Source: a virus. From it: a stretch of DNA of 32,920 nt. A program made the position numbers and the translations under genes. Where the stretch lies: IMG/VR virus record IMGVR_UViG_3300009156_000064, positions 1 through 32,920 of that record. One strand, given 5' to 3'. The notes beneath the pieces were generated by a model. The model searched no databases. It was not told the DNA's origin and saw only the letters and a program-made list of their open reading frames with translations. Below, one piece after another: positions 3,601 through 26,696 of the stretch (its first letter is position 1; the number at the start of each line of letters is the position of its first letter).

Positions 3601-4010
3601 GTGGGATCGGCGTCCATTCTGGCCTCGCGCGCTGCGGTAATCTCGCCTACGCGCGGCGCCTGGGCGGTCTGTTCAGAGAGAAACGCCTGTCCGGCCATCT
3701 CGGGCCTTGCGCTGAGGCCTGAGATAAACGGAGCGGCGCCGCGTCCAGCCTGTTCGATCAATTGGCCGATAGGGGCGAAGTCTCCACGGGACGCCGCGCC
3801 CAAGGCCTCTTCCATTACCCGGCCAGCGTCCGCCGCGCTCAGCAAGGCCCGCTGTCCGCCGATCTTCAGGTTTTCAAGGAATCCAGGGGTAGGAGCGGGC
3901 ACGGCTGGTTCCGGCGCCGGAACTGGCGTTTTCAGGAATTCATCAACCGAGACGGACTTCGGCTTGGGGACCGGGCGTTTAAGGAATTTTGCGATTGCAT
4001 CATCGGCCAT
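624..4010 (-). CDS. Giant internal virion/ejection protein with embedded ParB-like domain
   Basis: This 1128-residue protein is the largest in the window and the last of the late operon. The N-terminus carries a repeated FLK(R/T)PVP motif (residues 9-15 and 25-31), then a long Ala/Pro-rich low-complexity region to about 290. Residues ~460-545 look like a ParB/sulfiredoxin-fold domain: PLRQQVEP, then a beta strand, then DGNHR (523-527) and a DDIPVR strand. Residues ~610-1010 resemble the C-terminal regions of phage large polyvalent/DNA-ejection proteins (a helix-rich, partly hydrophobic part with FTGMVGGTLLLAKAAGF at 851-867). Size, operon position and lack of a tape measure fit a protein packaged in the head and ejected with DNA. 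The family match is by eye; enzymatic activity of the ParB-like part is unproven. Confidence 0.6.
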   Translation of the reverse strand: MADDAIAKFLKRPVPKPKSVSVDEFLKTPVPAPEPAVPAPTPGFLENLKIGGQRALLSAADAGRVMEEALGAASRGDFAPIGQLIEQAGRGAAPFISGLSARPEMAGQAFLSEQTAQAPRVGEITAAREARMDADPTLFSREARAERARLDEMAGRDPSLAGKITRRTTEGVVTAIPSIVAGAATGGSVPAMATMAGIQSMNAPEMLVPNVALAATPLPLGKAIAPIVRRIKVGRVAVEAIPPAPVSIEPVAPGVIPEIPAISPETALPAAQTRAPFPATSPDVPLNPAQQEAAALNSAIRKLGTDSVDEIAEMIANANRRFNKTVSAPGQPKRSITPVERQSMREDYQRVSALTKEENAALAEVLPERTFSPVNKILVEGEPTARNISDIPIDEPSAQLDANLRQLKAFFGSRDIVQESRIAAAVGQSADDPAIVSSADLGLETVPVPVRPVDAVPVTRRISVDDISLGRETLSKGRIFQAQESLKGGVKPETKGVPLRQQVEPMTVVPDPQRPGKFIVEDDGNHRIALLKLQGVTDDIPVRSFETPTQTAEISATVGPRAGEVAPMEVEIGRQLRQAEASGVARNMDPLQVESMARAEQLPLLDVAQKSRLKKAFSIAADVYNIPRALLSSSDISAPFRQGAILTLPPSRWGKALRSSVEMFRALVPDRPTSIKGGIKAQFQPKTERFQRMIDAIASDPDAQAGQGAGLHLGTQSRGPLRKAEEEFVSRTADRIPIVRESQQAYTAYLDNIRLNTFKQYKQAIDAQGFTATQTERAYKAAADWINIATGRGSFGPKLDRAMDALNFFVFSPRLLASRIQVLNPRTYLKNATTAEGRVVLKKQMSEMAQFTGMVGGTLLLAKAAGFKVGTNPEKPDFLRLSLGNYHYDGLAGLQPVMRLIWNVGKDAVRASQGEKPQTGARDALDVGARFLRSKAAPVPSFFVDFFDRKTFEGKPFDLTDAAVERLTPIMWQDFIEAYQREGLGGPLMLSPGAVGFGVQYFEPKPIDAAIEARPGLLTELTRLQVRLADPRRKPDETDAAYKGRQQAIANLYSRFGVSLMSDRRYAKLPDTEKRDVFDVLHSRILDAVNTRDRSTGQFRFEALINSIRKSAKQKTIRERLISRRPPL

Positions 4011-23652: not shown

Positions 23653-23985
23653 TCATGCGGGTTCGCTTTCGAGTAATTCAGCCAAGTTGCGCTCCTCAAT
23701 CTCGGCGATAGCGTCATCTACGCTGTTTATTTCCGCCTCCAGGGTCGCAACCTTGCGCTCCAATTCCTCACGCTGGCGCAGGAGCCGCGTATGGTCAGCA
23801 TCCAAGCCTACGCGGACAGCTTTCGCGCCTTCTTCTATGTGCTTCTCAATTGATCGCCATTGATCCGAGTTCCATTTCGGCGTCTTATCAGCGGCGGCTC
23901 GTGCTTGATTCACAGTCGCGCCACGACTGACTAGAGCCTCAAACACCGCCTGTTGTCCAAAATCTTGAAATATTCTTTCAGACAT
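23653..23985 (-). CDS. Hypothetical coiled-coil protein (110 aa)
   Basis: The product starts MSERIFQDFGQQAVFEALVS, has a small helical N-terminal part with ARAAADKTPKWNSDQWRSIE, and ends in a long heptad stretch (HTRLLRQREELERKVATLE, then INSVDDAIAEIEERNL) that is clearly coiled-coil. ATG 23985 is chosen because AGGAGG lies nine bases upstream; the longer frame enters the ATPase gene. It follows the ATPase by 16 bases. It may be a loader or dimerising partner of the ATPase, but no family is recognised. Confidence 0.55.
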   Translation of the reverse strand: MSERIFQDFGQQAVFEALVSRGATVNQARAAADKTPKWNSDQWRSIEKHIEEGAKAVRVGLDADHTRLLRQREELERKVATLEAEINSVDDAIAEIEERNLAELLESEPA

Positions 23986-24001
23986 TACTCTTAGCCTCCT
24001 T

Positions 24002-25696
24002 TTATTGGTCGATCGCGTCGAGGTATTGGTCGTCTTCATAGGCTGCCAACTCTGAATTTTGGCAGCCTATGAATATCTCGTTGCCGTCAGACGGGTTATC
24101 GTCCTCGGTTGTCCATAGGCTGCCACTTGGCAGACTATGCAAGGAGTCCTCCCCGTCATAGGCTGCCACTTGGCAGTCTATGGAGGTTTCGTCCTCGTAA
24201 GTCTTGTGGTGGCCGTTAGTTGAGCATAGGCTGCCATTGTTGCCCTCTTGGCAGCCTATGAGAGACCAGGTCCAAGCGCCTTTTTTGCCGAATCCGTCCC
24301 GTTTGGCCTCGATTCCGAGGGCTGCTTTTGCCCTTCTTAGAGTCCTCTCGGAGATGCCCGAGCGTCGAGCTTCGGCGAGTAGATCGTTGGCCGACTGAGA
24401 CCCTGACTTGAGGATTTCTTGCAGAAACTCCTCAGCGTCCTTTTTCTCGGCTTTCTCCTCGTCGTTCTTAATAGTCGAGAGAATCCTCTCCGCGGTCAGT
24501 TCCGACCGACCAAGCCAGCTAAACCGGGCGCCGGATGGCGAGTCAGGGTCCAGTTCGATCACGTAGCCAATGCTCTCGGCCAGGGGGCCGTAATTGTTTT
24601 TGGTTTGAGTGATGGCTTTCGTCTGCGGACAGTCGGGGTCCGAACCGATAAGAAGGACCGACCGAGCCGCGGCCCGCCACTCAATCGAATACAAGCCCGC
24701 GGCGCGCGCCTCGCCCAGGCCCTTCGACTTGCCGACGTGGCGGACCATGATCAGGGCGCAGTTAAACTCCTCGGCTAGTTCCTTCAGCTTGTTGGTAGTT
24801 GCCCGCGCTTCGTGGCCGCGGCTCGGGTCGCCTTTCGTGTAGGCGAAGACCGGATCGATCACAATCATTGTCGGGCCGCGGCGCAGAATCATCCGGCGAA
24901 CCAGTTCGACGCCCTTCTCGTCGAAACTGAACGGCTCGCCGACTGCGAAGACTCTATCCTCGCAGGCCCCCGCGGCGAGGAGCCGCGGCTTGAGGACTCG
25001 GGCCAGGTCATCCTCCGCGGAGAACCAGAGGACATTCCCCGGCGCGTCGAGTTCCATGCTTTCCAGGCCCCTGCCGCAAGTGACCGCCGCGGCGATGGCG
25101 CAAAGGGCCGTTGACTTGCCCTCGCCCTCGATCCCTTCAAAGAGCGTCAAGGCTCCGCGGGCGATCCGGCCCCGCCATAGCCAATCAATCGGCAGCATCT
25201 CGACATCTCGAATGCAAACCTCGCGGATAGGGAGAGGGTCGGCCTTTTCTCCCGCGGTGTCGAATGCGCCAGCCGCGGCCTTGATTCGTTCAACGAGAGA
25301 CGAAACATCCACGTCTCGGGCCTGGGCCTCGTTGAACCAATGTTCAGCGTGCCTGAGAATCGCCCGCTTCGTGGCCAGCTCCCGAAGTTTCGCGATCTCC
25401 GAGGTCAGATCCGAGGCGATCGGCTTATTGATAAGCATCTCGGCCAAATGGGCCGGCTCGATCCTCGATCCGCGCTCTTTCAGCCTGTCGGCCAGCATGA
25501 CGGGGTTGATCGAGTCGCCGCGGTCGGCCAGGTCGCAAAGAGCGTCGTAGATTTCCCTCGACCCGGCGAAAAAGCAGTCAGGCGGCGCTATTGAGCGAAC
25601 TTCCTTGACCCTCTCCGGAGACTCGGAGAAGAGCAGGGAACCAAGGACGGCGACTTCGAGATCGCGGTCGCGCGGCAACGTGAGGTCGTTTGTCAT
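24002..25696 (-). CDS. Replication ATPase: DnaB N-terminal domain fused to RecA/RepA-like core and HTH
   Basis: The 564-residue product has a DnaB-like N-terminal domain (1-115: LPRDRDLEVAVLGSLLF, then RLKERG and AKLRELATKRAILRH). A RecA-type AAA_25/RepA-like ATPase follows (~165-400) with Walker A EGIEGEGKST (187-196) and Walker B MIVIDPVF (277-284). Next comes a winged-helix-like region (420-470, NDLLAEARRSGISERTLRR). The last ~86 residues are low-complexity and acidic and are encoded by four DNA palindromes (see the repeat entry). It is likely the phage replicative helicase or its loader, acting at the origin. It overlaps its upstream zinc-ribbon neighbour by ATGA. Confidence 0.8.
   Translation of the reverse strand: MTNDLTLPRDRDLEVAVLGSLLFSESPERVKEVRSIAPPDCFFAGSREIYDALCDLADRGDSINPVMLADRLKERGSRIEPAHLAEMLINKPIASDLTSEIAKLRELATKRAILRHAEHWFNEAQARDVDVSSLVERIKAAAGAFDTAGEKADPLPIREVCIRDVEMLPIDWLWRGRIARGALTLFEGIEGEGKSTALCAIAAAVTCGRGLESMELDAPGNVLWFSAEDDLARVLKPRLLAAGACEDRVFAVGEPFSFDEKGVELVRRMILRRGPTMIVIDPVFAYTKGDPSRGHEARATTNKLKELAEEFNCALIMVRHVGKSKGLGEARAAGLYSIEWRAAARSVLLIGSDPDCPQTKAITQTKNNYGPLAESIGYVIELDPDSPSGARFSWLGRSELTAERILSTIKNDEEKAEKKDAEEFLQEILKSGSQSANDLLAEARRSGISERTLRRAKAALGIEAKRDGFGKKGAWTWSLIGCQEGNNGSLCSTNGHHKTYEDETSIDCQVAAYDGEDSLHSLPSGSLWTTEDDNPSDGNEIFIGCQNSELAAYEDDQYLDAIDQ
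24035..24260. repeat. Four-copy palindromic array inside the replication gene (candidate origin iterons)
   Basis: Four inverted repeats built from the half-site CATAGGCTGCCA lie within 226 bases. Copy 1 (24035-24073) has perfect 15-bp arms and a nine-base spacer. Copy 2 (24114-24139) and copy 3 (24157-24182) have 12-bp arms with one mismatch each and a two-base spacer (CT). Copy 4 (24225-24260) has perfect 12-bp arms and a 12-base spacer. Distances between centres are about 72, 43 and 73 bases. The half-sites are translated in different frames (IGCQ, DCQVAAY, SLPSGSLW, LAAYE), so DNA, not protein, is conserved. In phage lambda the replication origin likewise consists of four repeats inside gene O. 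Confidence 0.85.
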
Positions 25697-26115: not shown

Positions 26116-26346
26116 TTACGCTTCGGCTTGCGGGTTAGCCGATACGCTGATGAGCGGTTGATTCTTTAGCCAGTCCTTGGCATCGTCGGCCAAGATAATG
26201 ACCATTCTGCCCATTTTCCGAGCCGGTAGTTTCCCGGTTCGTATCTGAGCCTGCACGAAATCAATGGAAAGACTACACGCCCTTGCGAGTTCTCCTAGCC
26301 TGTAGGCCAGCTTCACCTTGTCGAAGTTAGGATTCGATGGCGACAT
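26116..26346 (-). CDS. Excisionase/AlpA-like winged-HTH DNA-binding protein
   Basis: The 76-residue product reads KLAYRLGELARACSLSIDFV, then QAQIRTGKLPARKMGRMVII and LADDAKDWLKNQP. This is the layout of small MerR/excisionase-type winged helices (first helix, recognition helix with Q-A-Q-I-R-T-G, Arg/Lys-rich wing). GGAGG lies five bases before ATG. Its place next to the integrase argues for a directionality factor (Xis); a regulator of the neighbouring replication promoter is the alternative. Repeated AGCGGTT sites on its downstream side are candidate targets. Confidence 0.65.
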   Translation of the reverse strand: MSPSNPNFDKVKLAYRLGELARACSLSIDFVQAQIRTGKLPARKMGRMVIILADDAKDWLKNQPLISVSANPQAEA

Positions 26347-26671: not shown

Positions 26672-26696
26672 TGTTCTGTACAAGGAGTACAGAACA
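26672..26696. repeat. Perfect 10-bp-arm palindrome next to integrase stop
   Basis: TGTTCTGTAC and GTACAGAACA flank the five bases AAGGA. It lies eight bases past the integrase stop and lacks a T-run on the minus strand, so it is a poor terminator. A dimeric repressor operator or integrase/core-type site is more likely. Confidence 0.6.

Follow-up and report, generated by a model that had tools for sequence, protein, structure and literature searches.

Why should the gene of a phage helicase end in four inverted repeats, and what, if anything, binds or reads them? The window analysed here (the whole stretch of DNA, 32,920 nucleotides, IMG/VR record IMGVR_UViG_3300009156_000064) carries such an array at the 3' end of a gene encoding a DnaB_N/AAA_25 helicase, built from eight half-sites of the type CATAGGCTGCCA (Table 1). 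The initial annotation had described eight half-sites in four inverted repeats at this end of a DnaB-N/ATPase gene, and motif scan, shuffles, and Pfam domain assignment all confirm it. Six of the eight half-sites are exact, the other two carrying one mismatch at position 6; they are located at 24037, 24060(-), 24114, 24128(-), 24157, 24171(-), 24225, and 24249(-). The palindrome centres fall at 24054, 24126.5, 24169.5, and 24242.5, with 24148 as their point of symmetry, and the centre-to-centre distances of 72.5, 43, and 73 agree with the symmetric spacing of about 72, 43, and 73 proposed earlier. With half-sites taken as 12 bp, the spacers measure 11, 2, 2, and 12 nt; the two short spacers and the 12 nt had been given correctly, whereas the remaining value of 9 requires arms of 15 bp in the first palindrome. 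The two spacer classes (2 versus 11-12 nt) differ by 9-10 bp and thus by approximately one helical turn. As had also been noted, the copies are read in different reading frames: the codon phases of the half-sites are 1, 2, 2, 0, 1, 2, 2, and 2, so that all three frames are in use.

Table 1. Features of the helicase gene and its inverted-repeat array (positions in the window).
Feature	Position	Strand	Basis or remarks
Helicase gene holding the array, 564 aa	24002..25696	-	DnaB_N + AAA_25 ATPase + predicted winged helix + array-bearing linker + conserved tip
DnaB N-terminal domain, residues 7-103, common to relatives	25388..25678	-	Pfam, DNA homology
AAA_25 / RepA-like hexameric-helicase ATPase domain, residues 169-325	24722..25192	-	Pfam, profile comparison
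Predicted winged-helix DNA-binding domain, residues 418-478, immediately preceding the array	24263..24445	-	phrog_25488 match, sequence pattern
Apparently exchanged cassette (ATPase + winged helix + array)	24038..25258	-	No DNA homology to relatives
Array, four inverted repeats (eight CATAGGCTGCCA half-sites)	24035..24261		Motif scan + shuffles
Palindrome 1	24035..24073		Arms of 15 bp separated by 9 nt, or 12-bp half-sites with an 11-nt spacer
Palindrome 2	24114..24139		2-nt spacer, one half-site with one change
Palindrome 3	24157..24182		2-nt spacer, one half-site with one change
Palindrome 4	24225..24260		12-nt spacer, arms perfect
Conserved C-terminal tip (..DAID), stop, Shine-Dalgarno of next gene	23996..24037	-	DNA homology to relatives resumes at array edge
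AT-rich segment, possible unwinding element	23960..24019		AT content; no clear match in relatives

Across the whole window, half-site matches with up to two mismatches number 9 against 1.95 expected, a count reached by none of 100 dinucleotide shuffles, and the good copies all lie within one cluster. Within a 261-nt segment, 4 hairpins were found where 0.04 would be expected (maximum of 1 over 500 shuffles). The array is furthermore not imposed by the protein sequence, because 1000 synonymous recodings of the tail never reproduced it (mean of 0.07 hairpins, maximum of 2, as compared to 4 in the real sequence). The palindrome centres, four positions in a single genome, are in phase with a helical repeat of 10.5 bp (R=0.97, p=0.004; the best among periods 8-14), and show no phasing with the codon period of 3. 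This helical phasing favours a protein on double-stranded DNA over RNA hairpins.

DnaB and AAA_25 are the only Pfam domains of the helicase. The widespread AAA_25 family, which has been described as having no known function (PMC8965321), has a profile that matches RSF1010 RepA as well as DnaB helicases. The winged helix is predicted from a PHROG match together with a sequence pattern; a profile search of this region against the PDB returned designed proteins only and no convincing solved structure. AlphaFold models were of low confidence (mean pLDDT of 42 and 48) and were left out of fold searches; in these, the array-bearing linker was modelled without structure, likewise at low confidence, and is probably disordered. 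It had been suggested that the last ~86 residues, that is, the tail behind the predicted winged helix, exist only to carry the array. This does not apply to its end, as the final residues YLDAIDQ are kept in relatives. More distant AAA_25 helicases are devoid of the tail, their proteins stopping right behind the winged-helix-like domain, and an alignment of diverse helicases contained no segment conserved enough to serve as a search query. The phage also encodes an integrase and is probably temperate. Directly after the integrase gene, at 26672-26696 of the window, lies a perfect inverted repeat, TGTTCTGTAC-AAGGA-GTACAGAACA, which could serve as an operator or belong to an attachment site.

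Two independent relatives with the gene, L009 (record G004) and L022 (record G003), were found via the DnaB_N domain; their terminases are 91% and 84% identical, respectively, to that of the window. Scans with P0001/P0004 and with the second ATPase module, covering 84,980 genomes of bacteria and archaea, turned up no relative. In L009 and L022, the genes follow the order seen in the window, the DnaB_N domain is kept, and the protein ends in the conserved DAIDQ/DAIDD, but the ATPase and the predicted winged-helix module are different ones. The linker that holds the array in the window is occupied here by a perfect hairpin (19 and 20 bp, respectively) of TCCCTCAA units, accompanied by a solitary conserved copy. 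This element thus consists of direct units arranged as a single long inverted repeat, together with a lone site; its hairpin was not found elsewhere in IMG/VR. The core, TGAGGGA, has 7 copies in G003 and 8 in G004, five of them in each genome falling within 116 bp at the identical offsets 0, 9, 29, 38, and 109; the fifth of these is the solitary one, situated outside the hairpin arms in a stretch that is fully conserved between the two. Three stem pairs differ between L009 and L022, and all three have changed on both sides (compensatory), the changes in the 3' arm causing two V->I replacements in the protein. Judging from these substitutions, it is the pairing that is kept in this element rather than the protein. 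The initial annotation had proposed to see whether related phages keep the half-sites while the protein tail drifts: both relatives retain the tip and have palindromes of another sequence, the CATAGGCTGCCA half-sites themselves being replaced by the TCCCTCAA hairpin. A tail that is kept while palindromes are gone, the outcome named there as speaking against the proposal, was seen in neither of them. L009 additionally contains a perfect 14-bp inverted repeat between its HTH gene and its helicase gene (3700-3746).

The comparison with these relatives also bears on how the array travels. DNA homology to the window reaches 25259 in G004 (84% identity) and 25472 in G003 (73% identity), is lost across the ATPase, winged helix, and array, and reappears at the outermost base of the last half-site (24037), from where it extends to 23996 (79% and 86%). 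Between 25259 and 25472, a sharp domain exchange within one gene is thereby located: the DnaB_N domain is common, and the ATPase is replaced by one that is ~25% identical. Since homology stops after DnaB_N and restarts at the outer edge of the array, ATPase, winged helix, and array seem to have been exchanged jointly between phages as one cassette, whose boundaries, taken from BLAST, are approximate. Fast drift of the linker could be another cause of the lost homology; recombination is nevertheless the best explanation, because at the other end of the cassette 84% DNA identity falls to ~25% protein identity. It appears quite possible, if somewhat short of probable, that the unit constitutes a portable and self-contained replicon cassette, in which a DnaB/RepA-type helicase and its own origin-binding domain form one protein and the origin matching that domain lies in the disordered linker directly behind it, such that a single recombination between DnaB_N and the C-terminal tip would replace helicase, recognition domain, and origin together and still matched.

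Taken together, we consider it probable that the array provides clustered binding sites for the helicase-initiator whose gene contains it, and that it serves as the phage replication origin or as part of it. We infer that the cassette's own protein binds the array and that replication starts there. The protein is a hexameric helicase of the DnaB/RepA type with a predicted C-terminal winged-helix domain, which, as a dimer or through neighbouring subunits, may bind the palindromes and form four complexes on one face of the helix. The bound winged helices would then place helicase rings at the array, and unwinding could begin in the adjoining AT-rich stretch (63% AT, 98.8 percentile of the window). 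With the sites located in the linker between winged helix and tip, the amino-acid sequence would be free to follow the DNA. The origin reading is supported by the constant position of an element whose sequence is replaced, by the compensatory changes, by the joint exchange, and by the helical phasing. Counterpoints are that the independent relatives number two, that an AT-rich flank is not clearly present at the corresponding place in them, that the AlphaFold model is poor, and that GC skew has no turning point at the array; its sign changes only near 29 kb, where gene direction changes, and it is hence uninformative on the array. Compensatory stem changes would, moreover, also be expected if RNA pairing were what matters, or if repair templated by the hairpin acted in the absence of selection.

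The main rival, which we regard as unlikely though deserving attention, is a set of RNA hairpins in the middle of an operon, acting in processing, stability, antitermination (like the HK022 put hairpins), or in setting the ratio of helicase to downstream gene products. The array does sit in a long operon of co-directional genes, between the helicase gene and the remainder; RNA transcribed from the region folds far more stably than shuffles (z -9.1), the compensatory pairing in L009 and L022 fits RNA, and in kin phages lacking the helicase a different conserved hairpin lies near the start of the operon. Against this, no T-run follows the hairpins and no terminator was called, and the region has no Rfam match above the gathering score; those below it, of which the best is a coronavirus frameshift element antisense to the gene, represent chance matches to hairpins. 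The altered pairs of the middle palindromes are mismatches on the mRNA strand (A:C, T:C), the TGAGGGA copy conserved in the relatives is solitary, and helical phasing is not expected for RNA. A joint exchange with the ATPase and winged-helix module would also require a separate reason.

A DNA site of another function, for example, a repressor operator, a partition or centromere-like site, or a recombination site, appears decidedly improbable. Palindromic half-sites in helical phase would suit any dimeric DNA-binding protein, and the phage encodes several small HTH proteins. However, no promoter-like match was present in the region and no partition gene among the scanned proteins, and the array travels with the helicase module, whereas the nearby HTH gene (26116-26346) belongs to the region where homology to the relatives persists.

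There is very little to recommend a mobile hairpin repeat of the MITE or REP type that multiplied within the gene, an alternative raised by the initial annotation and disfavoured within viruses and plasmids by pattern scans: it would fit that the copies are nearly identical, vary in their spacers, and lie in a linker that tolerates them, but good copies are confined to the one cluster, and an unrelated hairpin occupies the same place in two relatives. Among 2.9 million viral contigs, the exact palindrome occurs in one other IMG/VR contig only, which matches the window over 15.1 kb at 99.99% identity and, being essentially the same virus, adds no independent evidence; it is absent from plasmids, and the phage set gave a single 24-bp match by chance. 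The palindrome is thus not a dispersed viral repeat. Equally far-fetched is a functionless mutational product, in which hairpin template switching perfects quasi-palindromes in an unconstrained linker: template-switch correction yields compensatory changes without selection and the linker is modelled without structure, but this fails to explain the position held constant across exchanged modules, the five sites (one of them solitary) at identical offsets, or the helical phasing.

Hairpins were also surveyed in the wider AAA_25 family. Their presence inside the 3' end of AAA_25 genes in general was not supported as a rule (one of 10 distant homologues versus two of 58 other genes). Within 100 nt past the stop codon, a hairpin was found for five of the 10 distant AAA_25 genes (L011, L014, L017, L027, and L029) as compared to eight of 58 neighbours (p=0.018); these may be terminators, and at least that of L014 looks like an ordinary one. 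Separately, a conserved inverted repeat, AACG[C/T]GGCGGC...GCCGCC[G/A]CGTT, immediately precedes the first gene of the common operon in three contigs of kin phages (L034 2407-2449, L061 1142-1185, L063 3295-3336) that have no helicase/integrase module near that operon, with one compensatory pair between L034 and L061. It is possibly a replacement element.

If the origin and cassette readings are true, a phage would be able to swap its replication specificity in one step with initiator and origin never separated, which would suggest a reason for origins to lie within initiator genes. In addition, the array gives short and concrete target sites along with a candidate recognition domain for AAA_25, making origin recognition by such helicases directly testable.

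Several known systems offer points of comparison. RSF1010 RepA resembles the present helicase in an ATPase domain detectable by profile, but relies on a separate initiator (RepC) and separate oriV iterons. In the phages TP901-1 and Tuc2009, the origin repeats likewise lie inside the gene of the replisome organizer (ORF13 and Rep2009, respectively; PMC8965321); they are, however, direct repeats acting with a separate initiator, as opposed to inverted repeats in a helicase gene. The stem-loop origin system of pRN1 (ORF904), with a similar element in phage BIP-1, lies just 3' of a gene for a helicase with a C-terminal winged helix, is divergent in sequence and conserved in structure, and is required for replication (PMC4234260). 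There, a prim/pol protein with an SF3 helicase takes the place of the RepA/DnaB-type helicase (DnaB_N + AAA_25), and instead of an array inside the coding sequence there is a single large stem-loop beyond the stop codon. The alpha protein of P4 carries a primase (Toprim) domain, and the P4 sites are located outside the gene, two features that set P4 apart from the window. It is similar in combining a helicase-type replication protein, a C-terminal winged-helix origin-binding domain (here predicted), and origin repeats, namely ori/crr iterons (in part, PMC4234260).

A further parallel is found in lambda and the lambdoid phages. In lambda and Stx phages, ori lies in the O gene, and a pair of additional iterons lengthens O by 13 residues (PMC7466680). 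Common to both cases are four palindromic repeats within the replication protein's own gene, in a stretch where the protein is tolerant; an AT-rich flank lies by the array in the window and is not clear in its relatives. In contrast to lambda, where the repeats are close-packed in the middle of the gene, the palindromes here are 43-73 bp apart with spacers of 2 and 11-12 nt and occupy its 3' end, and the gene encodes a DnaB_N + AAA_25 helicase with a predicted C-terminal winged helix instead of an O protein. Of the lambda-like origin that had been proposed, sites for an initiator within its own gene remain the best-supported reading, given position, joint exchange, compensatory changes, and phasing, while membership in the O family is not supported; by analogy, the array would work like a lambda-type origin without belonging to that family.
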